NCBI GenBank assembly: GCA_021818335.1
Contig: JAKAEJ010000014.1
Span: forward strand, 1 to 38,529
Direction: 5' to 3'
DNA length: 38,529 nt
From: Pseudomonadota bacterium
Lineage (GTDB): Bacteria > Pseudomonadota > Gammaproteobacteria > Xanthomonadales > Rhodanobacteraceae
The stretch's first letter is position 1. The number at the start of each line of letters is the position of its first letter. Position numbers and translations under genes: made by a program. This document shows positions 13,956 to 37,596 of this stretch, in pieces. The notes below the pieces were generated by a model that searched no databases, was not told the origin of the DNA, and was given only the letters and a program-made list of their open reading frames with translations.

Positions 13956-14433
13956 GCGTTCCCTTCGCGAGGTCTTCCTGCGGGCACGCTACGAGGTCGA
14001 ACTCGGAGCGTCGCGCAACGTGACACTGCGCCCCGGGTTGCCATTGCCGGCATCCCTGCGAATGTGGCTTCGCGACGACCGGCACTGGGCGATGCTGACC
14101 GCCTGGAACCCCCGGGCAACGCCGCGTGGCGATGCCGCCAACCGGCGCGCGCAGGCACGGCTTGAACGCTTGCTGACCGAGGGCCATCCGCATCGCCGTT
14201 GGCTACCGGCGCGCAGCTGTGACGGGCGCGGCGGCTGGGTCGAGCCCCAGTGCTTCGTCGCCGGCCTCGCCCCGGCTGCTGCACGGCGACTGGCAGGTCT
14301 GTTCGACCAGCGTGCGTACCTCCATGGCCAGGTCGACAGTCTCGTCAAGCTGCGCCTGCGTCGCCAGCCCGCATGGACAGGGGGGCACGAGCCTGTGCAG
14401 AATCCGCGCGCCCATGATGAATGCATTCCCTGA
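13942..14433 (+). CDS. DUF3293 domain protein
   Basis: This 163-residue frame matches the DUF3293 pattern: an N-terminal YEVEL strand, [30 protein letters not shown], a later [13 protein letters not shown] segment, and [13 protein letters not shown] near the end. The function of the family is not known; it is a small soluble domain. The only plausible start after the last conserved upstream boundary is TTG at 13942, inside the 3' end of greB; the Shine-Dalgarno is weak. Its stop lies about 20 bases inside ccmA. Because it is sandwiched with overlaps on both sides it is probably cotranslated with greB and ccm. Start position is the least certain part. Confidence 0.75.
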
Positions 14434-15055
14434 CCCCCAGCCCGCACCGATCGACGTTCGCGGACTGGTCTACGAGCGGCGCGACGAGCGCGTCTTCGGC
14501 CCGCTGGACTTCACCGTCGAGGCGGGAACGATCGCATTGGTGGAAGGCGACAACGGCAGCGGCAAGACCACACTGCTGCGCGTGATCGCTGGACTGCTGC
14601 GCGCCAGTGCCGGCGAAGCACGGGTCTTTGGATCGGCGCCCGGCAGCGATGAAGCGCGTGCCGGCACGGCCAGCCTGGGCCACCTGCTGGGTCTCAAGGG
14701 TGATCTGACGCCACGCGAGAACCTGCACCTGGGTATGGGGCTTTATGGCTGCAAGTCCGGCGAGGATCCCGACGCCATGCTGTGCCGGGTGGGCCTCGAG
14801 GGATTTGGCGACGAACCGGTGCGCACGCTTTCCGCTGGCCAGAAGAAGCGCACGGCACTCGCGCGACTGGCGCTGCTGCCGGCACGGCTTTGGTTGCTCG
14901 ATGAGCCTTATGCCAATCTCGATCGCCACGGCATCGCCCTGGTCAACCACCTGCTGGCCCTGCATGCCGCGGCCGGGGGCAGCGCGCTGGTGACCAGCCA
15001 CGGCGCGGTCAGTTTCCACCAGGGCGTTGCCTGCACCATCCGGTTGACGCCATGA
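14414..15055 (+). CDS. ccmA: Cytochrome c biogenesis ATP-binding export protein CcmA
   Basis: CcmA is the ATPase of the CcmABCD complex, which releases heme-loaded CcmE. The roughly 213-residue ABC protein shows Walker A near 44-52 (GDNGSGKTT), the signature LSAGQKKRTALARLALL, Walker B LWLLDEPYANLD, and the switch histidine region VTSHGAVSF. Two ATGs are adjacent (14414 and 14417); either could serve. The open frame extends upstream to 14219 through the DUF3293 gene but is not conserved. Its TGA overlaps the ccmB ATG. Confidence 0.96.
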   Translation: MMNAFPDPQPAPIDVRGLVYERRDERVFGPLDFTVEAGTIALVEGDNGSGKTTLLRVIAGLLRASAGEARVFGSAPGSDEARAGTASLGHLLGLKGDLTPRENLHLGMGLYGCKSGEDPDAMLCRVGLEGFGDEPVRTLSAGQKKRTALARLALLPARLWLLDEPYANLDRHGIALVNHLLALHAAAGGSALVTSHGAVSFHQGVACTIRLTP

Positions 15056-15738
15056 GCGAACCCTCGATGGCCGCCGCGTTCCGCGCGATGCTGCAACGCG
15101 ACCTGTTGCTCGCCTGGCGTCGCCGCGGCGACGCGCTGCTGCCGGTCCTGTATGCCGTGATGGTCGCCACCCTCTTCCCGTTCGCATTGGGACCCGAGCA
15201 CACGCTGCTGGCGCGCATCAGCGGCGGGGTGGTCCTCGTGACGGTCCTGCTGTCCATGTTGCTGTCGCTCGACGCGGTATTCCGCGGCGACCTGGAGGAC
15301 GGTGCCCTCGAGTACCTGGTGCTCGCGCCGCAGCCATTGGCGTTGCTGGTCGCCGCGCGCATGCTGGCTTACTGGCTGGTGACGGCGCTGCCCCTGATCG
15401 CGGTCGCGCCGCTGCTGGCGTACATGCTCGGGCTCGAGGGACCCGCGCAGCCCGTGTTGCTGCTCGCCCTGCTCCTGGCGACACCCTTACTGGCACTGAT
15501 CGGATCCGTATTGACCGCGCTCACGGTGGGAACCCGCCGGTCTGGTATGCTGCTTGCCCTGATGCTGCTGCCTCTGGCGGTGCCCATCGTGATTTTCGCC
15601 GCCGGTGCCGTCGGGGCTGCCCAGCAGGGGCTGCCTTGGGTCGCACCGGTGGCCTGGTTGGCGGCGGCGCTGGCCCTCGCCGTCGTCCTCGCGCCGCTGG
15701 CCTGTGCCACGGCCTTGCGCATCGCCCTGGATTCATGA
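15052..15738 (+). CDS. ccmB: Heme exporter/CcmE-release subunit CcmB
   Basis: CcmB is the membrane partner of CcmA in the ABC-type complex that, with CcmC and CcmD, frees holo-CcmE. The 228-residue protein has about six hydrophobic helices, a cytoplasmic N-terminal RDLLLAWRRRGD segment and the conserved SLDAVFRGDLEDGALEYLVLAPQPL, typical of the family. ATGA overlap with ccmA before it and with ccmC after it. Confidence 0.95.
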   Translation: MSEPSMAAAFRAMLQRDLLLAWRRRGDALLPVLYAVMVATLFPFALGPEHTLLARISGGVVLVTVLLSMLLSLDAVFRGDLEDGALEYLVLAPQPLALLVAARMLAYWLVTALPLIAVAPLLAYMLGLEGPAQPVLLLALLLATPLLALIGSVLTALTVGTRRSGMLLALMLLPLAVPIVIFAAGAVGAAQQGLPWVAPVAWLAAALALAVVLAPLACATALRIALDS

Positions 15739-16493
15739 ACGCGATCAAGCTCTGGTATCACAAGCTCGGCTCGCCGCCCTACTTCTACGTCTTTGCCGGC
15801 TACATCCAGCCCTGGCTCTGGACGATCGCGGCGATGCTGGCCGTCGCGGGCCTGTATGGCGGCCTGGTCCTCGCGCCCGCCGACTATCAGCAGGGCGACG
15901 CCTTCCGCATCATCTTCGTGCACGTGCCCGCGGCGTGGATGAGCCTGTTCATCTACGGCGTGATGGCCGTTTCGGCGTTCATCGCGGTGATCTGGCGCCC
16001 GAAGATGGCGGAGGTCCTGGCGATGGAATCCGCACCCATCGGTGCCGCGTTCACCTTGATCGCCCTGGTGACCGGGTCGCTGTGGGGTCGGCCGACTTGG
16101 GGGACCTACTGGACCTGGGACGCGCGTCTGACTTCCGAACTCGTGCTGTTGTTCATCTACCTCGGCGTCATCGGCCTCTACCATGCCTTCGAGGATCCGC
16201 GGCAGGGCGCGCGCGCCGCGTCCTTCCTCGCCATGGTCGGCGCCGTCAACCTGCCGATCGTGCATTACTCCGTCGTCTGGTGGAATACGCTGCACCAAGG
16301 CACGACGGTGCGCTATTTCGGTCCCTCGTCCATCGCGCCCAGCATGCTGTGGCCCCTTCTGGCCATGACCTTCGCCGCCAAGTTCTACTACGGTGCCAGT
16401 CTCATGCAGCGCTCGCGGGTGTCCCTGCTTAGCCTCGAACGTGGCAAGGACTGGGTCGCCGACATCGTGCGCCGGGAGCCGACCCATGGCTAG
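15735..16493 (+). CDS. ccmC: Heme transporter/CcmE heme-lyase subunit CcmC
   Basis: CcmC presents heme to CcmE in the periplasm. The 252-residue, six-helix protein contains the tryptophan-rich heme-handling motif WGTYWTWDARLTSEL, the flanking histidines in FVHVPAAWMS and NLPIVHYSVVWWNTLHQ, and a cytosolic C-terminus. The start ATG at 15735 overlaps the ccmB TGA; an earlier in-frame start at 15636 lies inside ccmB and is not conserved. It ends eight bases inside ccmD. Confidence 0.97.
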   Translation: MNAIKLWYHKLGSPPYFYVFAGYIQPWLWTIAAMLAVAGLYGGLVLAPADYQQGDAFRIIFVHVPAAWMSLFIYGVMAVSAFIAVIWRPKMAEVLAMESAPIGAAFTLIALVTGSLWGRPTWGTYWTWDARLTSELVLLFIYLGVIGLYHAFEDPRQGARAASFLAMVGAVNLPIVHYSVVWWNTLHQGTTVRYFGPSSIAPSMLWPLLAMTFAAKFYYGASLMQRSRVSLLSLERGKDWVADIVRREPTHG

Positions 16494-16665
16494 GTTCCTC
16501 GCGATGGGCGGCTACGCCGTATTCGTATGGCCGGCCTACGCCGTGTTCCTCCTGGTCCTGGCGGCAGATGTCATTGCCACCGTGCTGCGCCGTCGCCGCG
16601 TGCTGCGGGAGTTGCGTAGTCGCATCGCCCGCCAGGGTCGCCGCCGCGGGAGTGTGTCCCCATGA
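16486..16665 (+). CDS. ccmD: Heme exporter protein CcmD
   Basis: CcmD is a small one-helix membrane protein that holds CcmC and CcmE to CcmAB. The 59-residue product starts [19 protein letters not shown], has a single membrane helix (about residues 8-30) and an Arg-rich cytosolic tail ([20 protein letters not shown]), matching the family's size and layout. A second ATG at 16504 ([10 protein letters not shown]) is a possible start and would give the more usual N-terminus. It overlaps ccmC by eight bases and ccmE by four. Confidence 0.92.
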
Positions 16666-17126
16666 AACCCAAACGCCGTCGCCGCATCGTGCTCGTCTCG
16701 CTGATCCTTGTCGCCGTGGCCGTGGCCAGTGGCGCCATGGTGTACGGCCTGTCGAAGAACATGAGCTACCTCTTCACGCCCAGCCAGATCCTCGCCGGCA
16801 AGGCCAGCGACTACCGGAGCTTCCGCCTCGGCGGCATGGTGGCGCCCGGCTCGATCCAGCGGGACCCGCACTCGCTGCGCGTCGACTTCACCGTCACCGA
16901 CGGCGACCATACGATGCCCGTGCGCTACACCGGCATCCTTCCCGACTTGTTCCGTGCCAATCAGGCCGTGATTGCCACCGGCCACATGCAAAATGGCACC
17001 TTCGTCGCCAGTGAAGTGCTGGCCAAGCATGACGCGACCTACATGCCGCGCGAGCTGCAGCAGGCGATGGCGCAGGCGCATGCGAAATTCCACGTGCGCC
17101 TGCCGGCGCAGGAGGCACGGCCATGA
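16662..17126 (+). CDS. ccmE: Heme chaperone CcmE
   Basis: CcmE binds heme covalently in the periplasm and delivers it to the CcmF/H lyase. The 154-residue protein has a basic N-terminus ([10 protein letters not shown]), one membrane anchor, an OB-fold domain ([36 protein letters not shown]) and the heme-binding histidine near position 123 in [10 protein letters not shown], with the conserved tyrosine four residues later. ATGA overlap with ccmD and with ccmF. Confidence 0.97.
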
Positions 17127-19117
17127 TGCCCGAACTGGGCCAGATGGCGCTGATCCTGGCGCTGATCCTCGCGGCCGTGCAAGCGGTCTTTCCCTTGCTG
17201 GGTGCTTGGCGCGGCTCATCCGCCCTGATGCGCATGGCGCGGCCGGCGGTGGCCGGGCAGTTCGTGTTCATGGTGCTTGCCTACGCGGTGCTCACGCATG
17301 CGTTCATGGTCAACGACTTTTCGGTGCGCTACGTCGCCGAAAACTCCAACCTCACCCTGCCCTGGTACTACCGATTCTCCGCCGTCTGGGGCGCCCATGC
17401 GGGGTCCCTGCTGCTGTGGGTCCTGATCCTCAATGTCTGGACGCTGGCCGTGGCCGTCTTCTCGCGGCGCCTGCCCGAGGCGTTCGTGGCCCGCGTGCTG
17501 GGCATCATGGGATTGGTCAGCGTCGGCTTCCTGTCGTTTTCGGTACTCACCTCCAACCCCTTCCTGCGGGTGTTGCCGGCGCCAGCCAACGGCATGGACT
17601 TGAACCCGGTGCTTCAGGACCCCGGTCTCGTCATGCATCCGCCGATGCTTTACATGGGTTACGTGGGCTTCTCGGTCGCCTTTGCCTTCGCCATCGCCGC
17701 GCTGCTGGGCGGAGCCTTCGACGACGTCTGGGTGCGCTGGGCGCGGCCCTGGACGAACGCCGCCTTCGGCTTCCTGTCGGCAGGCATCGTGCTGGGCAGT
17801 TGGTGGTCCTATGCCGAACTCGGCTGGGGCGGCTGGTGGTTCTGGGATCCGGTTGAGAATGCCTCGTTCATGCCCTGGCTGGTCGGCGCCGCACTGATCC
17901 ATGCTCAGGCCGTGACGGAGAAGCGGGGTGGCCTGCGCGCGTGGACGCTGCTGCTGTCGATCTTCGCGTTCTCGCTGTCGCTGCTGGGTACCTTCCTGGT
18001 CCGCTCGGGCCTGTTGACCAGTGTCCACGCGTTCGCCTCGGACCCCCGCCGCGGCTTGTACATCCTGATGCTGCTGGGCCTCGCGGTTGGCGCTTCGTTG
18101 CTGCTGTACGCGCTTCGCGCACCCAAGGTCGCCGGCGGCAAGCCGTTCGCGCTGGCCTCGCGCGAAACCCTCATCGTCATCGGCAACCTGATGCTGGTGG
18201 TGGCCTCGGCCATGGTGCTGATCGGCACCTTGTATCCGATCATCGGCGACGCCCTGCATCTGGGCCGCGTCTCGATTGGTCCACCCTATTTCGGCCCGCT
18301 GTTCATCGCGATGATGGCGCCCGTCGTCCTGTTGCTTCCCTTCGGCCCGTTCGCACGCTGGGGCCACGCCGACCTGCGCGAATGGAAGCGCGTTGCGCTC
18401 ATCGGCGCGGTGGCGGCCCTCGTCGGCGGCACCCTGTTCGCCTGGGCAGCCAGTGGGGGCATGCCCGGATGGCAGGCCTGGCTGGGCGGACTTTCGTCGG
18501 CGTGGGTGGTCGCCGGCGTGATCCTTTACGCGCGCAAGCGCTGGGTTTCGGTGCCCGCCGGGCGACGTTATCCGGCGGAGATGGCCGGGATGCTGTTGGG
18601 GCATCTGGGCGTGGGCATTTTCCTCGCGGGCGCGCTGCTGACCAACAACCTCAGCGTCGAGCGCGACGTGCGCCTTGCGCCGGGGCAGACGGCCCAGGTG
18701 GGCGGCTACACGTTCCGCTTCGAAGGCGTCACCGACGTCCGTGGGCCCAATTGGGTCGCGCACCAGGGAACGCTGGTGGTGACCCGTGGCGACCAACAGA
18801 TCGCCGTGCTGCACCCGCAGAAGCGCGAGTATTCAGGCGACATCGTGCAGACCGAGGCGGCCGTCGACGCGGGGCTCTTCCGGGACCTCTACGTTGCGTT
18901 GGGTGAAGGGCTCGGCAACCACGGCGCGTGGGCGCTGCGCTTGTACGACAAGCCATTCGTGCGCTGGGTCTGGCTGGGCGGCCTGTTCATGGCGCTGGGC
19001 GGTTTCGTCACCCTGCTGGACCGACGCTTCCGCGTCCGCGTGACGCAGGATGCCGGGGACTCAACGCCGGCGCCGGCAAGCCCTCGTCCGGTGCGGGCTC
19101 AAGAGGCCGGCGCATGA
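17123..19117 (+). CDS. ccmF: Cytochrome c heme lyase subunit CcmF
   Basis: CcmF is the large membrane component of the System I heme lyase that joins heme vinyl groups to the CXXCH cysteines of apocytochrome c. The 664-residue protein has the normal length and multiple membrane helices. It carries the periplasmic WWD motif [19 protein letters not shown] (around residues 233-251), the early [22 protein letters not shown] and GSLLLWVL segments, and a periplasmic domain before the last helix. GGAGG lies seven bases before the ATG at 17123; a second ATG at 17126 is also possible. Four-base overlaps occur at both ends. Confidence 0.97.
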
Positions 19118-19665
19118 AGCTGTACCTGCCGCTGGCCATCTTCCTGGCCCTGGTCGGGCTGTTCGGGTTCGGCCTGTGGTGGAACAGTGCGCACAACCCG
19201 ACGTTGGTGCCATCGCCGCTGATCGGCAAGCCGGCGCCCGCCTGGAACCTGCCACTGCTCTATCAGCCGGCCAAGACGCTCGACAAGGCCGACATGCTGG
19301 GCAAGCCCTATATCGTCAACGTCTTCGCCAGTTGGTGTTTTGCCTGCGCCGACGAGCACCCGGTGCTGATGGCCTACAGTCACGACCTCGGCGTGCCCCT
19401 GATCGGATACGACTACAAGGACAAGGCCACCGATGCGCTGGCGTGGCTGCAGCAGCATGGCGATCCCTACACGCAGGTCGTGGCGGACGAGAGCGGGCGG
19501 ACCGCCATCAACTTCGGCGTGTATGGCGCGCCGGAGACGTACCTGATCAACGCCCGGGGCATCATCCTGTGGAAGCACATCGGTCCCCTGACGCCCGGCG
19601 TCATCCGCGATGAGTTGGCGCCGCGTTTGCGCAAGCTGGGGATCCAACCGAGGATTGGCGCATGA
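19114..19665 (+). CDS. ccmG: Thiol:disulfide interchange protein CcmG/DsbE
   Basis: CcmG is a membrane-tethered periplasmic thioredoxin that keeps apocytochrome c cysteines, or CcmH, reduced. The 183-residue protein has an N-terminal membrane anchor and a thioredoxin fold with the redox pair Cys75 and Cys78 (ASWCFACADEHP), FGVYGAPETYLI with the cis-proline, and a C-terminal GPLTPGVIRDEL. The intervening Phe-Ala differs from the Pro/Val/Thr pairs more often seen, but the cysteines are intact. ATG at 19114 overlaps the ccmF TGA. Confidence 0.95.
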   Translation: MKLYLPLAIFLALVGLFGFGLWWNSAHNPTLVPSPLIGKPAPAWNLPLLYQPAKTLDKADMLGKPYIVNVFASWCFACADEHPVLMAYSHDLGVPLIGYDYKDKATDALAWLQQHGDPYTQVVADESGRTAINFGVYGAPETYLINARGIILWKHIGPLTPGVIRDELAPRLRKLGIQPRIGA

Positions 19666-20096
19666 AGGGCATGCTGCGCACCGCGACGCTCGTGCTCTTG
19701 CTGGGCACCGCGCTTGCATCGTCTGCCGTCGATGCGCTGCCCTTCAAGAATGCCGCACAGGAGGTGCGCTTCCAGGACCTGACGCGCCAGTTGCGCTGCC
19801 TCGTATGCCAGAACGAGGACCTCGCGGACTCCGATGCCAAGCTCGCCAAGGACCTGCGCTACGAGATCTTCCAGCAGATGCAGGCAGGCCGCAGCAACGC
19901 GCAGATCAAGCAGTGGCTGGTCGACCGCTATGGTGACTACGTCCTGTACAAGCCGCCGCTGAAGCCGTCCAACTATCCACTGTGGTTCAGCCCGTTCGTG
20001 CTGCTGCTGCTGGGCGCGCTGGGCGTGGGCATCTACCTGCGCCGCCGTGCGCAGCCGCCGGCTGCGGCCGGCTCCGACGAGGATCAGGACTGGTGA
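19662..20096 (+). CDS. ccmH: Cytochrome c-type biogenesis protein CcmH (CycL)
   Basis: CcmH is a membrane-anchored periplasmic thiol protein working with CcmG and CcmF at the apocytochrome haem-binding site. The 144-residue protein has a signal peptide (about 1-25), the family motif with Cys46 and Cys49 in LRCLVCQN, a three-helix domain ending WLVDRYGDYVLYKPPLKPSN, and one C-terminal membrane helix. After CQN the residues are Glu-Asp where Gln-Ser is usual (CQNEDLADSDAKLAKDLR), a small local change. It overlaps ccmG and ccmI by four bases each. Confidence 0.95.
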   Translation: MKGMLRTATLVLLLGTALASSAVDALPFKNAAQEVRFQDLTRQLRCLVCQNEDLADSDAKLAKDLRYEIFQQMQAGRSNAQIKQWLVDRYGDYVLYKPPLKPSNYPLWFSPFVLLLLGALGVGIYLRRRAQPPAAAGSDEDQDW

Positions 20097-21168
20097 ACAC
20101 GACGTTTCTGCTGGCCAGCGGCCTGTTGCTGGCGCTGGCGCTTGCCTTCGTGCTCTGGCCCCTGCTCAGCCAGGCCGCGCGACAGCCCAATCGCCGCGGC
20201 CTCTACGCGCTGGGGGCCCTGTTGGCGATCGGCATCCCGCTGGCCAGCGCGGGCTTGTACCGCCAGGTCGGCGATCCGGCCGCGCTCAACCCCGCCGCTG
20301 CGCGCCAACCCCTGACGATCGATGAAGCCATCGCCAAGATCCGGGCATCGCTGGACCGCAACGGCGCAGATCCCGACCTCTGGACGTTGCTGGGACAGGC
20401 CTACAGCGCGAAGCACGAGCCCGCCAAGGCCGCCGACGCGTTTGAACATGCGCTGAAGTACAAGCCGGACAACGCTGACCTGCTGGTCGCCTGGGCGCAG
20501 GCCGATTCGCTGACCCAGCCGCAGCATCTCATCAACGGACTCGCGCGGGCGCGTCTGCAACGCGCCGTGGCCGTCGATCCGACCCACCAGCGCGGGTTGT
20601 GGCTGCTCGGCATCAGCGACTTCCAGCTGGGCCACTATGCCGGAGCCATCGCCACCTGGACGCGACTGCTGAAGCTGCTGCCTCCGGGCTCGGGCGTGGC
20701 CCAAGGCGTGGCTGACCAGGTGCATCTGGCTGCCCAGCGCGGCGGCGTGGCCCTCGATCCGGAGCAGGACCGCGTCCTGGCGGCGGCTACGGCGGCGCCG
20801 GCGGCGGCAGACAGCGCGGGAGGACCCCGGATCACCGTTCACGTGAGCCTCGCGCCGGCACTGGCGCCGCGCCTCGGCAACGAGACGTTGCTCTACGTCT
20901 TCGCGCGCAACCCTGACGGACCCCCGATGCCCCTGGCGGTCGCGCGACTGCCGGCCAGCAGCCTGCCCGCCACAGTCACCCTCACCAACGCCATGAGCAT
21001 GTCGCCCGCCATGAACCTCTCGTCGGCCAAGACGGTGATCATCGGTGCGCGGCTGAGCGCCAGTGGCCAGCCGTTGGCGCAACCCGGCGACCTCGAAGGG
21101 CAAAGCAAGCCAGTCCCGGTGGCGGGTGGCAAGCCCGTGGATGTCCTCATCGACCGGGTGGTCCACTG

Positions 21169-21169
<1 letters not shown>
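20093..21169 (+). CDS. ccmI: Cytochrome c biogenesis factor CcmI (CycH)
   Basis: CcmI is a TPR chaperone that binds the C-terminus of apocytochromes c and brings them to CcmF/H. The start is GTG at 20093, overlapping the ccmH TGA. The 358-residue protein has two N-terminal membrane helices around a short loop, TPR-like repeats (IRASLDRNGADPDLWTLLGQAY, AADAFEHALKYKPDNADLLVAWAQ, AVDPTHQRGLWLLGI), and a C-terminal periplasmic beta domain (ITVHVSLAPALAPRLGNETLLYVFARNPDGPPMPLAVAR) as in the fused CcmH/CcmI proteins of enterobacteria. Its TGA overlaps the next gene's ATG by one base. Confidence 0.93.
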
Positions 21170-24110
<2,941 letters not shown>

Positions 24111-24153: not shown

Positions 24154-24588
24154 TCAATCCAGTGGCAAGCCAAGCCGCGCGCGCACGGCCGGGTCCAGCG
24201 ATGCCAACCCGGCGGCCTGACCAAGCGCCAGTGCGTCCTCCGCCGGTACGCCTTGCTCCCAGGCCGCGGCCAGGGCGATCAAGGCGCCCACGCGGTTCGA
24301 TGTGCCGCAATGGAGCAGCACCGCATCCTCCCCGGCCCTTGCCAGCGCGTCATGCAGCGCCCGCGCATTGGCGCGGTTGAGGTCGGCCGGCGTAGCCACC
24401 GGGATATTCACATAATGCATGCCGAGGCGGCGGACGCAATCCGCCTCGTCGAACGCGAGCTCGCTTGGCGGCCGCAGGTTGACCACCCAGCGCACGCCAT
24501 CGGCGGCGAGCCGTTCAAGGTCCTGTGCATCGGGTTGCCCCGCGCAATACAGACGGCCTTCAAGTACGCGGGGCTGGCAGGGACTCAT
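24154..24588 (-). CDS. DUF442/protein-tyrosine-phosphatase-like protein
   Basis: The 144-residue protein resembles the DUF442 (TIGR01244-type) phosphatase-fold family, often fused or linked to ETHE1-like metallo-beta-lactamases in Blh proteins. Visible features: LYCAGQPDAQDLERLAADGVRWVVNLRP, FDEADCVRRLGMHYVNIPV, and a P-loop HCGTSNRVGALIAL with Cys94 and Arg99. The loop is C-x4-R, not the C-x5-R of classical tyrosine phosphatases, as in this family. The start at 24588 has GGAG six bases upstream; an ATG at 24615 is less likely. It diverges from the persulfide dioxygenase gene, which supports a sulfur-related role, though activity is unproven. Confidence 0.8.
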   Translation of the reverse strand: MSPCQPRVLEGRLYCAGQPDAQDLERLAADGVRWVVNLRPPSELAFDEADCVRRLGMHYVNIPVATPADLNRANARALHDALARAGEDAVLLHCGTSNRVGALIALAAAWEQGVPAEDALALGQAAGLASLDPAVRARLGLPLD

Positions 24589-24788
24589 GTCGATCTCCGT
24601 TGCGGTGGGTGCCATCGCTGGCAGCTCGGGGCCTCGGGGGAGCGCGTTGCGCCGGACAGAGAGTACCCGCATCTCGGCACGCGACCGAACGGGACCAGCC
24701 CGGCTTCGCCCTTCCGTGTTCGAACGTTCAGTCACGGTCCGGGCAAGTCAATTATTTTAGTGTTTGCTAATTTGTTAACGGCACCCCC
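24589..24788. promoter_or_regulatory. Divergent control region of the sulfur module
   Basis: This 200-base region lies between the divergent DUF442 and persulfide dioxygenase genes. It has an AT-rich block (24750-24778) far below the local GC level, holding the inverted repeat TTAG-N6-CTAA at 24757-24770, just upstream of the dioxygenase ATG. A second dyad, CCGTG ... CACGG at 24714-24737, flanks the palindrome GTTCGAAC. ArsR-type persulfide sensors such as BigR/SqrR bind AT-rich dyads in similar places, but no regulator gene is present and the match is only by kind. The dioxygenase has no clear Shine-Dalgarno. Confidence 0.45.
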
Positions 24789-25664
24789 ATGCAGCCCATC
24801 GTGGACAGCATCCTCCATTCGCCGAGCGCGACCTGGACCCATCTTCTCATCGACCCGGCTACCCGGACCGCGGCCGTCATCGATCCGGTCCTGGACCTCG
24901 ACTTTCCTTCGGGCGCATCGAGCCCAGCGCACGTCCGTGGCCTGGTGAACCGGATCGAGACGCACGGCGCCCACCTTGCGTGGATCCTCGAGACGCACGC
25001 GCACGCCGATCATTTCTCTGCAGCCGCCTGGCTCCGTGAGGAAACCGGAGCCCGCATTGCCATCGGGGCGGGCATCCAGGACGTCCAGGAGCATTTCAGC
25101 CATGCACTCAACCTGGAGCCCGGTTTCCGAACGGATGGTTCGCAATTCGATCGTCTCCTGCATGACGGCGATACCATCGAGGTCGGCATGCTGCACGTGC
25201 AGGTCATCGCCTCGCCCGGCCATACCCGCGACTCGGTCAGCTACCTCGCGGGTGACGCGCTTTTCGTAGGCGATACCTTGTTCCCTCCGGACTGTGGCAC
25301 TGCGCGCTGCGACTTCCCTGGAGGGGACGCGGGCATCCTCTACGACTCGATCCAGCGGATCTATCGATTGCCCGATGCGACCCGCATGTTCGTATGCCAT
25401 GACTACCCGCCGCACGGCCGTGCACCCCGCGCCCATTGCACCGTGGGCGAGCAACGCCGAGCCAACGCCCACGTGCGGGCGGATACGGCACGAGAAGCGT
25501 TCATGGCCTTGCGCACCACGCGCGACCGAAGCCTGTCGCCACCCGCATTGCTTTATCCCGCCGTGCAGGTCAACGTGCGCGCCGGAGCGCTGCCTCCCCC
25601 CGAAGCCAATGGCGCGATCTATCTCAAGGTACCGGTGGGCGGGATGTCCGGGCGCGCGGCATGA
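24789..25664 (+). CDS. ETHE1/Blh-like persulfide dioxygenase, metallo-beta-lactamase fold
   Basis: Persulfide dioxygenases oxidise glutathione persulfide to sulfite and glutathione using one iron and oxygen. The 291-residue protein begins MQPIVDSILHSPSATWTHLL, the characteristic opening of the Blh/ETHE1 group. Metal ligands: THAHADH (His70, His72, Asp74, His75), SPGHTRDS (His145), Asp162 in VGDTLFPPDCGTARCDFPGGDA, and His204 in VCHDYPP. The DCGTARCDFPGGD segment is diagnostic for this family against glyoxalase II. Its ATGA overlap with the truncated hemoglobin gene shows one operon. Unlike Blh it lacks a fused DUF442 domain, which sits on the opposite strand instead. Confidence 0.9.
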   Translation: MQPIVDSILHSPSATWTHLLIDPATRTAAVIDPVLDLDFPSGASSPAHVRGLVNRIETHGAHLAWILETHAHADHFSAAAWLREETGARIAIGAGIQDVQEHFSHALNLEPGFRTDGSQFDRLLHDGDTIEVGMLHVQVIASPGHTRDSVSYLAGDALFVGDTLFPPDCGTARCDFPGGDAGILYDSIQRIYRLPDATRMFVCHDYPPHGRAPRAHCTVGEQRRANAHVRADTAREAFMALRTTRDRSLSPPALLYPAVQVNVRAGALPPPEANGAIYLKVPVGGMSGRAA

Positions 25665-26089
25665 ATCCGGAACCTTCCCTGTACGCGCGCATTGGCGGCC
25701 AACCGACGATCGATATGATCGCCCGCTGCTTCTATGCACGGATGGAGACCATGCCGGAGGCAGCCGCAGTGCGCGCCATGCACCGGATGGGCCTTGATCA
25801 AGCGGAGGAGCGACTGCGTGCGTTCCTGAGTGGTTTCCTCGGCGGGCCCGATCTCTACCGGTCACGCTACGGCGAACCGATGATGCGGCGGCGTCATATG
25901 CCTTTTCCCATTGGAGCCGCCGAACGCGACGCGTGGCTGGCCTGCATGGCGGGAGCACTTGATGAAGCGCTCGAACATCCAGCCTTGCGACAGGAGGCTT
26001 TTGCGTCCATCGCCCAATTTGCCGATCACATGCGCAATCGCGATGGCAACGCCCCGCCGATGCCGCGCGCGGGAACGACGCCATCCTGA
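25661..26089 (+). CDS. Group II truncated hemoglobin
   Basis: Group II truncated globins (trHbO) bind heme and oxygen, nitric oxide, peroxide or sulfide. The 142-residue protein shows LYARIGGQPTIDMIARCFYARM (A/B helices, B10 Tyr), FLSGFLGGPDLYRSRYGEPMMRRRHMPFPIG with the proximal F8 His79, and DAWLACMAGALDEA with the G8 tryptophan typical of group II. Its ATG overlaps the dioxygenase TGA, so both are made from one message. An oxygen- or sulfide-binding globin coupled to a persulfide dioxygenase suggests gas supply or protection, which is inference. The C-terminal Pro-rich tail is not conserved. Confidence 0.92.
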   Translation: MNPEPSLYARIGGQPTIDMIARCFYARMETMPEAAAVRAMHRMGLDQAEERLRAFLSGFLGGPDLYRSRYGEPMMRRRHMPFPIGAAERDAWLACMAGALDEALEHPALRQEAFASIAQFADHMRNRDGNAPPMPRAGTTPS

Positions 26090-26166
26090 ACATCCATCGC
26101 CTGCCCCTACGCACGTTTATATCGTCATGATCTAATCAAGCATCCGTTTTCCTGACAGGAGCTTCC
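26090..26166 (+). promoter_or_regulatory. Spacer before the rhodanese gene with a TGAT-CTA-ATCA dyad
   Basis: The 77-base spacer between the globin and rhodanese genes is AT-rich around 26115-26140 and holds the short dyad TGAT-N3-ATCA at 26128-26138. It looks like an FNR half-site pair, but the spacing is three, not the FNR-type arrangement TTGAT-N4-ATCAA. It may carry a separate promoter. A clear GACAGGAG Shine-Dalgarno precedes the ATG at 26167. Confidence 0.3.
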
Positions 26167-26523
26167 ATGTTTGGTTTCAACAGCGGCGCCCATCCTCTCG
26201 ACATCGATGCCAAGACCGCGCGCCAACGCCTGGAGCAAGGTGCGCGCCTCGTCGACGTCCGCGAAGCCCATGAAGTCGCGCATGGCATGGTGCCCGGCAG
26301 CGTGCATATTCCGCTGGGTGTTTTCGGCGGGGATCTGGCCGGCGTGCTCACGCGCCATGGCCTCGATCCAACCCAGCACGACATCCTTTGCATCTGCGCC
26401 AGTGGCGGACGGTCGCGGCATGCCGCCATGGCGCTTCGCCAGCTCGGCTGTCCCGCGGCGGCATCGGTGATGGGTGGTGTCATGGCCTGGGCAGCCGGCG
26501 GTGGCGCCCTGCAGAAGGCCTGA
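26167..26523 (+). CDS. Rhodanese-like single-domain sulfurtransferase
   Basis: Single-domain rhodaneses carry a persulfide on a loop cysteine and pass sulfane sulfur to acceptors such as cyanide, glutathione or sulfite. The 118-residue protein has LVDVREAHEVAHGMVPGSVHIPLG, the active loop Cys77-Ala-Ser-Gly-Gly-Arg-Ser (ICASGGRSRHAAMALRQLG) and a C-terminal GGVMAWAAGG, all standard. No signal peptide is seen, so it is cytosolic. It lies 77 bases after the globin and completes a module with the persulfide dioxygenase. The substrate in this module is inferred to be glutathione persulfide. Confidence 0.93.
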   Translation: MFGFNSGAHPLDIDAKTARQRLEQGARLVDVREAHEVAHGMVPGSVHIPLGVFGGDLAGVLTRHGLDPTQHDILCICASGGRSRHAAMALRQLGCPAAASVMGGVMAWAAGGGALQKA

Positions 26524-27362: not shown

Positions 27363-28387
27363 GTGGTCCTGATCACGGGCGGTGCCGGGGCGGTGCCGGG
27401 TATGTCGGATCGCATGCCTGTGTCGCACTCATCGAGTCGGGCTATTTGCCTCTCGTGCTGGACAACTTCAGCAACAGCAGCATCGAATCGTTGCGTCGCG
27501 TCGGCCGCATCACCGGCGTGCAACCGCGACTCGTCGAAGCAGACGTGCGTGATGCCAGCGCGCTAGACTCCGTTTTCCGCGGTGGCACGATCGATGCGGT
27601 GATGCACTTTGCCGGCCTGAAAGCCGTAGGAGAATCCACGGCCCAGCCGCTTCGCTATTACGCGCACAACCTGGCCGGCACGGTTGCGCTGGCCGAGGCC
27701 ATGCAACGCACCGGCGTGCGCAACCTGGTGTTCTCGTCCTCGGCCACGGTGTATGGGGAACCCGGCATCGAGCAACTCCAAGAGGACATGCGCTGCGACC
27801 CGGTCAATCCCTTTGGAAGAACCAAATGAATGATCGAGCAGATGCTCGCGGACCTCGCCGCCAGCGAGCCGGGCTGGCGCATCACGCGACTGCGCTACTT
27901 CAGTCCGGTGGGGGCGCACGCCAGCGGACTGATCGGCTAGGATCCGGGTGGCGTGCCCAACAATCTCATGCCCTATGTCAGCCAGGTCGCCGTCGGGCGC
28001 CTCGATCGCCTGGGCGTCTACGGTGGCGATTGGCCCACGCCCGATGGGACCGGGGTGCGTGACTACATCCACGTCATGGACCTTGCCGATGGTCACGTCG
28101 CGACCCTTCGCCACCTGCTGGCCGCGCCGCCGCAATTGCTGACGCTGACTCTCGGAACCCGTCGTGGCACGTCGGTGCTGGAGATGATCCGTGCCTTCGA
28201 GCGCGCGAGCGGCCGCCCCGTGCCGTACGACATCTTCGATCGCCGCGCCGGCGACATCGCCGCCTGCTGGGCGGATGCCACGCGCACGGCGCAGGTGCTC
28301 GGCTGGCGCACGCATCGGGGGCTCGATGATCTGTGCGATGACGCATGGCGCTGGCAGCAGGCCAATCCCCGAGGCTATGGCGGCTGA
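27363..28387 (+). pseudogene. galE: UDP-glucose 4-epimerase pseudogene
   Basis: The translation follows GalE from VVLITGGAG to GYGG but is broken. An 11-base tandem duplication (27379-27400) shifts the frame inside the GGAGYVGSH NAD-binding loop. TGA at 27827-27829 replaces the Leu codon in the GRTK-L-MIEQML segment, and TAG at 27938-27940 stands where LIG-E-DP is expected. The catalytic YxxxK tyrosine is also changed: NPFGRTK with TTT at 27812. After these points the frame is clean through PNNLMPYVSQVAVG, GVRDYIHVMDLADGH, LGTRRGTSVLEM and the end. Removing one duplicate copy restores the frame. No start codon with a Shine-Dalgarno is visible; GTG at 27363 is the nearest. GalE would have interconverted UDP-glucose and UDP-galactose. 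Confidence 0.93.
27379..27400 (+). repeat. 11-base perfect tandem duplication inside galE
   Basis: The unit GCGGTGCCGGG occurs twice in a row at 27379-27389 and 27390-27400. One copy encodes part of the GGAG dinucleotide loop; the second shifts the frame by +11. Deleting either copy gives the expected ITGGAGYVGSHAC. Confidence 0.95.
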
Positions 28388-33696: not shown

Positions 33697-34347
33697 TCAA
33701 CGCAGCTGATCGAGTGCCGCCAAAAGTTCCAGTGGGTCGGCACGCTTGGTGTAGTCGGCCTCGGCAAAGGCATAGGCAATTTCGCCCTTGCGGTCGATCA
33801 CGTAAGTTGCCGGAATGGGCAGCTCAAACGTGGTGTCGCCATTGGAACCCGGTATGTCAATGCCGAACTGGCTGTAGATCGGGCGCAGGGCATCCGGCAC
33901 GGTGAAGACGAGGCCGAACTGCCTTGCAACGCGGTGGCCCACGTCCGAGAGGACGGGGAACGAAAGTGCATTTTTCTCGGCCGTAGAAAGCGACGCATCG
34001 GGCGTCTGCGGGGAAACGGCAACCAGCTGCGCACCGCGCGCCTCGAATGCACCGCGATGAGCCTGCAACTCGCGCAGTTCCAGGTTGCAGTACGGGCACC
34101 AGCCACCGCGATAAAAAGCCAACACCACGGGACCCCGCGTGCGCAGTTCCGCGAGGGTATGCAGCTTGCCGGTTGCGTCGGGAAGGCCGAAGTCGGGTGC
34201 CTTCTCGCCTACCTTCAGGGTCCGTCCAAGGATGCCTGAATGTTGCAGGTCCGAGGTCGCCTGATTCATGACTTTGCCGATCTCGGGCGGAATGCGGGAG
34301 GCGTTCGTTGCCGCCATTTCGCGTAACTGTTCGGTGAGCGTTGCCAT
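33697..34347 (-). CDS. Peroxiredoxin-like (AhpC/TSA) protein
   Basis: Thioredoxin-fold peroxidase-like protein of 216 residues from MATLTEQLREMAATNAS. After a helical N-terminal extension it has KVGEKAPDFGLPDATGK, then VLAFYRGGWCPYCNLELRELQ with Cys84 and Cys87, ISPQTPDASLSTAEKN-like text (VAVSPQTPDASL), FPVLSDVGHRVARQFG and PIPATYVIDRKGEIAYAFAEADY. The CxxC in a PRX-like2 context fits alkyl-hydroperoxide or peroxide reduction with thioredoxin. Frame extension to 34434 is not conserved. It converges on the AraC gene, leaving 175 bases without a convincing gene at 33522-33696. Confidence 0.9.
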   Translation of the reverse strand: MATLTEQLREMAATNASRIPPEIGKVMNQATSDLQHSGILGRTLKVGEKAPDFGLPDATGKLHTLAELRTRGPVVLAFYRGGWCPYCNLELRELQAHRGAFEARGAQLVAVSPQTPDASLSTAEKNALSFPVLSDVGHRVARQFGLVFTVPDALRPIYSQFGIDIPGSNGDTTFELPIPATYVIDRKGEIAYAFAEADYTKRADPLELLAALDQLR

Positions 34348-36843: not shown

Positions 36844-37596
36844 ATGCCACAGGACCAACAGTTGCGCACGCTACCGTCGTGGCAATCCGACGACGGGGAT
36901 CCCCTGCATTTCTGCACCACTTGCGCATTTTCGCAGGCAAGCAAGAGCGCGGGGTATGACAAGGCCGCGCTGCGCGACCTCCACGTCCTTGTCGAACACG
37001 TAGGCCCATTTCGCAGGGGCGACTACGTCTTTCGGGCCGGCAATTCCTTCCGCGCCATTTTCGCCGTGCGAGCGGGCGCGGTGAAAACCGTGGCCATGGA
37101 CCCCGATGGCAACGAACACATCCTTGGCTTCTACATCCCCGGCGAGGTCATCGGCCTCAACGCCATCTATCCGGAGCACTATCCGTGCGACGCGATCGCG
37201 CTCGAAGCGAGCCTTTTTTGCCGCTTCTCATTCCCCGCCATCAGCGCACTGGCTACGCGGATGCCCGGTCTTCAACAGCAGTTGTTCAAGCTGATCTCGA
37301 AGGAACTGGGAGAAGCCAATCGCCTGCTGGGCAGCCAAGGCGCCGACGAGCGGGTCGCCGCATTCCTCCTCAATCTCGCTGCACGCTATGCCGCACAGGG
37401 ATCGCCACCCAGGCAACTGCGACTGGCGATGTCGAGAAATGACGTGGCGGCGCACCTGCACCTCGCATCGGAGACGGTCAGCCGGACGCTGACCCGATTC
37501 AAGGACGCCTCCCTGATCGATGTCTCCGGCCGAACCATCACCGTGCTCGACCCGAACCGCCTTTCTCAACTCGCACAATGCATCTTGGAACGGTGA
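36844..37596 (+). CDS. FNR-type Crp/Fnr regulator lacking the third cluster cysteine
   Basis: A 250-residue FNR homologue. It has an effector cAMP-binding-like domain (FRRGDYVFRAGNSFRAIFAVRAGAVKTVAMDPDGNEHILGFYIPGEVIGLNAI), a dimer helix (LFKLISKELGEANRLLGSQGADERVAAFLLNL) and a helix-turn-helix with the FNR recognition residues E..SR (ASETVSRTLTRF). E. coli FNR holds its 4Fe-4S cluster with Cys20, 23, 29 and 122. Offset by four, this protein has Cys24, Cys27 and Cys126, but position 33 is Ser (AGC at 36940-36942). An extra Cys115 is near the fourth ligand. The start at 36844 is preferred for conservation; ATG 36757 is also open. It probably binds TTGAT-N4-ATCAA-like sites. Confidence 0.92.
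   Translation: MPQDQQLRTLPSWQSDDGDPLHFCTTCAFSQASKSAGYDKAALRDLHVLVEHVGPFRRGDYVFRAGNSFRAIFAVRAGAVKTVAMDPDGNEHILGFYIPGEVIGLNAIYPEHYPCDAIALEASLFCRFSFPAISALATRMPGLQQQLFKLISKELGEANRLLGSQGADERVAAFLLNLAARYAAQGSPPRQLRLAMSRNDVAAHLHLASETVSRTLTRFKDASLIDVSGRTITVLDPNRLSQLAQCILER

Follow-up and report, generated by a model that had tools for sequence, protein, structure and literature searches.

Persulfide dioxygenases of the PDO2 type, SqrR/BigR-type repressors and group II truncated haemoglobins (trHbs) have each been described in other bacteria. For example, a stand-alone PDO2 separate from DUF442 is already known from the yeeE-yedE-pdo2 genes of A. baumannii (PMC7315123) as well as among solved structures (PDB 4ysk), and in E. 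coli the SqrR/BigR homologue YgaV has been footprinted at the ygaV promoter (PMC9774250). Group II trHbs have been known since 2010 to bind sulfide in vitro, with those of T. fusca and B. subtilis doing so via the distal pocket, according to PMC3391200 and PMC9536834, which cite Nicoletti 2010.

The locus described here belongs to a type of system already on record, the persulfide dioxygenase locus under SqrR/BigR control, and is a lineage-specific form of it whose new part is a recruited group II globin. As in the Blh/BigR operon, DUF442 N-terminal and dioxygenase C-terminal halves are matched and a predicted BigR/SqrR-type operator lies between them, but here the halves are two divergent genes, the repressor is not local and a globin is added. 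The locus shares with the BigR-controlled A. baumannii genes a stand-alone PDO2 under what would be a BigR-type persulfide sensor, whereas it carries a globin and a rhodanese in place of the transporters found there. Similarly, it resembles E. coli YgaV/YgaP through a two-cysteine ArsR repressor, found here in congeners, an operator of the same form and rhodanese/YgaP-TM partner genes, but the dioxygenase and globin are absent beside ygaVP. An earlier note on this DNA had singled the locus out as the window's best candidate for an under-described system; the note was right about the module, but the underlying dioxygenase and regulator system was already known, and it is the globin-bearing variant that had no literature match. 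Specifically, neither an operon of the dioxygenase (SDO) with the globin, nor SDO together with any trHb, nor a group II trHb in a sulfide operon or sulfide-linked gene neighbourhood was found in the literature searched, which took in a minority of subscription-journal papers. On balance, the locus is best read as the part of a sulfide/persulfide detoxification regulon that supplies the dioxygenase, with a group II globin added within a single genus of Rhodanobacteraceae, most likely as a sulfide/reactive-sulfur haem buffer.

Gene content of the locus

The window, meaning the whole stretch of 38,529 nucleotides that was analysed, is contig C25 in a 2.19 Mb genome that is 77% complete (G000). 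The features of the cluster are as follows.

21918..24110, plus strand: katG, catalase-peroxidase, flanking the cluster (NCBIfam PRK15061, 1256.9 bits)
24154..24588, minus strand: predicted DUF442/BLH_phosphatase-type sulfurtransferase-like protein, divergent from SDO (PF04273, 27.9 bits; P-loop HCGTSNR, Cys94)
24751..24776, no strand: candidate SqrR/BigR-type operator (core TTAG-N6-CTAA at 24757-24770; 28.5 bits)
24789-25664, plus strand: predicted PDO2/Blh-type persulfide dioxygenase SDO, 291 aa, MBL fold (HAHADH 70-75, H145, D162, H204)
25661-25664, plus strand: ATGA start/stop overlap of the SDO stop and globin start (translational coupling)
25661-26089, plus strand: group II truncated haemoglobin, 142 aa (Pfam Bac_globin, 1.7e-35; Tyr25, His41, Ala48, His79 and Trp92 at presumed positions B10, CD1, E7, F8 and G8)
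26116..26141, no strand: weak second operator-like site, 25 bp 5' of the rhodanese, suggestive only (7.0 bits)
26167-26523, plus strand: single-domain rhodanese, active loop CASGGRS (Cys77) (PF00581, 1.5e-13)

The earlier note had described a compact persulfide module in which a dioxygenase and a group II globin share an ATGA overlap, with a rhodanese next in line and a DUF442 gene pointing the other way. All of these placements agree with the gene calls, and the persulfide/sulfide reading of the module is upheld, with the globin translationally coupled to the dioxygenase; the adjoining katG, however, had been left out. The ATGA overlap recurs in L163 (6881-6884) and L164 (5355-5358), the rhodanese starts 77 bp 3' of the globin and holds the same position in most loci of the genus, and katG borders the cluster wherever a genus locus reaches far enough, G010 excepted. 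On the upstream side, a cytochrome c maturation (ccm) operon (14414-21169) reaches up to the cluster and is followed by a methyltransferase gene and katG. On the downstream side, galE is in two pieces (27455-27829 and 27953-28387; span 27455-28387), reflecting a frame break or assembly error, and is a single intact 340-aa gene in G002 (L163 8573-9595). Genes for an AhpC/TSA peroxiredoxin (33697-34347) and a CRP/FNR-type regulator (36844-37596) lie further downstream.

SDO is assigned from its sequence to the PDO2/Blh-type persulfide dioxygenases, having the MBL fold and the HxHxDH motif with its additional ligands, and matching the solved structures 4ysk (1e-85) and 9g8t (2e-90). It aligns with Blh residues 148-420, the dioxygenase half (339 bits), and the DUF442 protein aligns with residues 5-126, the sulfurtransferase half (42 bits), against a cut-off of 625 bits for the fusion family NF040641. 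The note's statement that the two are split and divergent here, unlike in the single Blh polypeptide, was correct. The DUF442 assignment is the weakest at the locus. Its gene is best started at 24588 on the minus strand, where its homologues begin, and the protein exceeds the Pfam cut-off of 26.1 bits, with all seven homologues also matching and the HCxxxxR loop present as HCGTSNR. Its score against the TIGR01244 sulfur transferase family (44.9 bits) was below the NCBIfam cut-off of 85.85, and a single-sequence structure model resembled the DUF442 structures 3gxh/3gxg with a TM of about 0.5.

The globin has the 2-on-2 fold, Tyr B10, His CD1, His F8 and Trp G8 of group II trHbs such as those of A. 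tumefaciens (2xyk), B. subtilis (YjbI) and T. fusca, but differs from these in having Ala at E7 and from the T. fusca globin in having His rather than Tyr at CD1. Its best solved relative was the A. tumefaciens group II haemoglobin 2xyk (1e-33, 45% identity), with a TM of 0.80-0.88 to a globin model built with 18 relatives (mean pLDDT 85). Tyr25, His41, His79 and Trp92, which are taken here to be B10, CD1, F8 and G8 after the published At-trHbO assignment, were invariant across 22 aligned relatives, and the haem pocket is intact.

Distribution and origin of the globin linkage

An SDO-like protein was identified in nearly all of 148 relatives and a globin match in only 20, with the pair adjacent in five, all of them members of the genus. 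The intact order SDO-globin-rhodanese was present in four species of this one Rhodanobacteraceae genus (G000, G002, G011 and G012), which argues against chance, and the linkage in G011 lies on a 2.1 Mb contig and is therefore not an assembly artefact. In G008 only a broken piece of the globin is left, interrupted by an in-frame TAG and missing its second half, and in G004 and G005, which belong to the same clade as the window, SDO leads directly to the rhodanese, leaving the module without a globin. As some species keep the module while lacking the globin or losing it, the globin can be regarded as an optional accessory. Outside the genus, no SDO was found near a related globin at any of 108 loci (covered to 5 kb on either side as far as the contig reached, or to 1.5 kb at class loci), and among the matches listed for 369 gammaproteobacterial class genomes, the two were adjacent in none of the 17 holding both (window's genome excluded) and never less than 59 kb apart, ruling out a general linkage within these limits. 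The linkage that the earlier note wanted looked for in other genomes, and whose absence from related ones would have undone the module idea, is thus real within one genus, in four species and as a remnant in a fifth, but does not extend to the outside globin loci or to other genomes of the class. The divergent DUF442 and SDO pair is also present in another genus (G038).

Other group II globins occur in different surroundings. One in G007 (L036 1516-3338) lies two genes after a cydB-like gene in an apparent cytochrome bd operon, and those of another family in L139 and L141 are convergent to a hemerythrin-domain-like protein (by eye). Along the operon, synonymous divergence from the sister species (window 24789-26523 versus L163) climbs from 0.09 in SDO to 0.21 in the globin and 0.37 in the rhodanese, possibly marking a recombination edge.

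In the sister species G007 and G009, the genes form a single locus, KatG-TauE<>SDO-rhodanese-RND-MFP-YgaP-TM-SQR<>ArsR, in which SQR and MFP were named by eye from sequence (Pfam giving only Pyr_redox_2 for SQR) and the remaining genes by Pfam. DUF442 takes the place of TauE in the window's clade (support 91/95), where SQR and the repressor lie side by side on other contigs or far off in G012, G011, G008 and G005. In G002, the closest relative of the window (SDO 98% identical), the SQR end followed by YgaP-TM, MFP and RND was found at a contig edge; the repressor was not found in this genome, its SQR contig stopping short of the expected repressor position. The note's report that no sulfide:quinone reductase (SQR) or BigR/SqrR regulator is local was corroborated, neither gene being found at the locus, and this absence is best accounted for by a cluster that has come apart into two pieces, which a common operator probably still ties together. 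The G000 genome (77% complete) likewise yielded no close SQR or repressor, although congeners have both elsewhere. The search for SQR among its Pyr_redox_2 proteins turned up only a 31% relative, and L199, the sole ArsR match, was rejected as the SqrR-type repressor orthologue (39% identity, E 1e-9, first sensor-position cysteine absent). In G004 (99% complete), SQR is only a fragment (L229 5645-6279), with the repressor, two operator-like sites, YgaP-TM and the RND pump kept.

The globins of the genus grouped with those of Thermomonas flagellata and a Lysobacterales MAG (SH-aLRT 98), which sit between ftsH and folP (named by eye) with no sulfide genes and no operator, suggesting that recruitment of the globin to SDO is likely the derived state. 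One gain with losses and two gains would fit this tree equally.

Predicted operator and sulfide regulon

Most of these species have an AT-rich palindrome, TTAG-N6-CTAA, upstream of SDO. A weight matrix was trained on eight repressor-adjacent sites (those between SQR and the repressor where SQR is present), with the SDO sites not used, and the training sites scored 16-27 bits when left out one at a time. Across the 38.5 kb window, the matrix gave 28.5 bits between DUF442 and SDO, compared to 7.0 for the runner-up and 10.2 for the best of 60 simulated windows, and the exact core occurred once in the window and in none of 100 shuffles. Every DUF442-type species had a site upstream of SDO (12.8-25.0 bits, equal base background), and in the 15 kb of E. 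coli scanned, the top two matches fell within 45 bp before ygaV. The site core ATT-N10-AAT is equal in spacing to the R. capsulatus SqrR site ATTC-N8-GAAT, and the ArsR repressors of the genus align with E. coli YgaV and carry its two sensor cysteines. The predicted operator is common to the window locus and the repressor's own promoter region, as in a SqrR/BigR regulon, and this match most likely places the SDO-globin operon in a sulfide-responsive regulon; induction of SDO and the globin by sulfide, as predicted from the operator, is very probable.

A sigma-70-like promoter for DUF442 overlaps the operator site (consensus match only). The site upstream of the rhodanese is within noise in the window, but its counterparts in L164, L167, L169 and L170 score 14-18 bits, and the matrix scan of the window found no operator-like site at katG. 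Weak candidates (12-13 bits) preceded just two of the other globins, those at L141 and L162; L139, the relative of L141, had none that strong, and no operator is proposed for these globins.

Possible roles of the globin

As an arm of such a regulon, the locus would depend on an SQR encoded elsewhere to convert H2S to persulfide, the DUF442 protein and rhodanese would transfer sulfane sulfur, and the PDO2-type dioxygenase would convert glutathione persulfide and O2 to sulfite. The operator between DUF442 and SDO would be occupied by a persulfide-sensing SqrR/BigR-type repressor, likewise encoded away from the locus, and freed as sulfide rises, so that the dioxygenase and globin would be produced together. 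For the globin, the earlier note had suggested O2 supply, binding of sulfide or persulfide, or protection of the iron site from NO. It could act as a haem buffer whose ferric haem binds H2S, with Trp G8, Tyr B10 and His CD1 to hold it, and slowly oxidises it, and would be useful but not essential. A role for the globin in sulfide stress is likely, although sulfide binding or oxidation as its actual chemistry is proposed more tentatively, being favoured because the operator implies production of the globin at high sulfide and because group II globins are reported to bind sulfide. Weighing against the haem-buffer reading are the lack of an SQR or repressor among the genes found in the 77%-complete G000, the absence of the globin in G004 and G005, its decay in G008, the surroundings of the nearest globins outside the genus, where sulfide genes are lacking, and the His at CD1 where the T. 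fusca globin has Tyr. A stronger version, in which the globin serves as a haem enzyme dedicated to sulfide whose ferric haem oxidises H2S to persulfide or polysulfide that feeds the dioxygenase, partly replacing SQR, seems unlikely.

It is also possible, and nearly as likely as sulfide binding, that the globin, though produced in response to sulfide stress, acts against NO or peroxide, shielding the dioxygenase Fe(II) site and the respiratory chain, with katG as a companion peroxide defence. Consistent with this, katG flanks the cluster across the genus, YgaV also controls katG in E. coli (PMC9774250), peroxidase-like activity has been reported in group II globins (YjbI, PMC9536834), and related globins lie near cydB in G007 and beside the hemerythrin-like gene in L139/L141. 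However, the globin overlaps SDO rather than katG, which lacks an operator-like site in the window and is there with or without the globin.

That the globin is instead a passenger that landed 3' of SDO and shares a transcript but no function with it would fit its linkage in one genus only, its pseudogene in G008 and its absence in G004 and G005. This is doubtful, as the ATGA overlap is kept in both linked lineages, the haem pocket is intact and the gene is under purifying selection in both: dN/dS between G000 and G002 was 0.17 for the globin (SDO 0.10, DUF442 0.15, rhodanese 0.09) and about 0.10-0.11 for the globin between G011 and G012, low values indicating that it is constrained wherever it is intact. 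Supply of O2 by the globin to the dioxygenase in micro-oxic sulfidic settings would suit the ATGA coupling to an O2-consuming enzyme and the presence in the genus of a species from an assembly labelled SulCav (by name probably a sulfidic cave), but is less likely than sulfide binding or NO/peroxide defence and on the whole improbable, given that oxygenated YjbI is reported to be very stable, arguing against O2 delivery by such globins (PMC9536834), and that SDO is retained without the globin in G004, G005 and most relatives.

In this small group of Rhodanobacter-like bacteria, the placement of the globin behind a sulfide-detoxifying enzyme and a probable sulfide-sensing switch suggests that it acts against sulfide stress. 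The coupling of a globin to a persulfide dioxygenase, downstream of what is probably a persulfide-sensor operator, opens the physiological role of such globins to direct testing, for which relatives that have kept, lack or are losing the gene offer ready-made natural comparisons.
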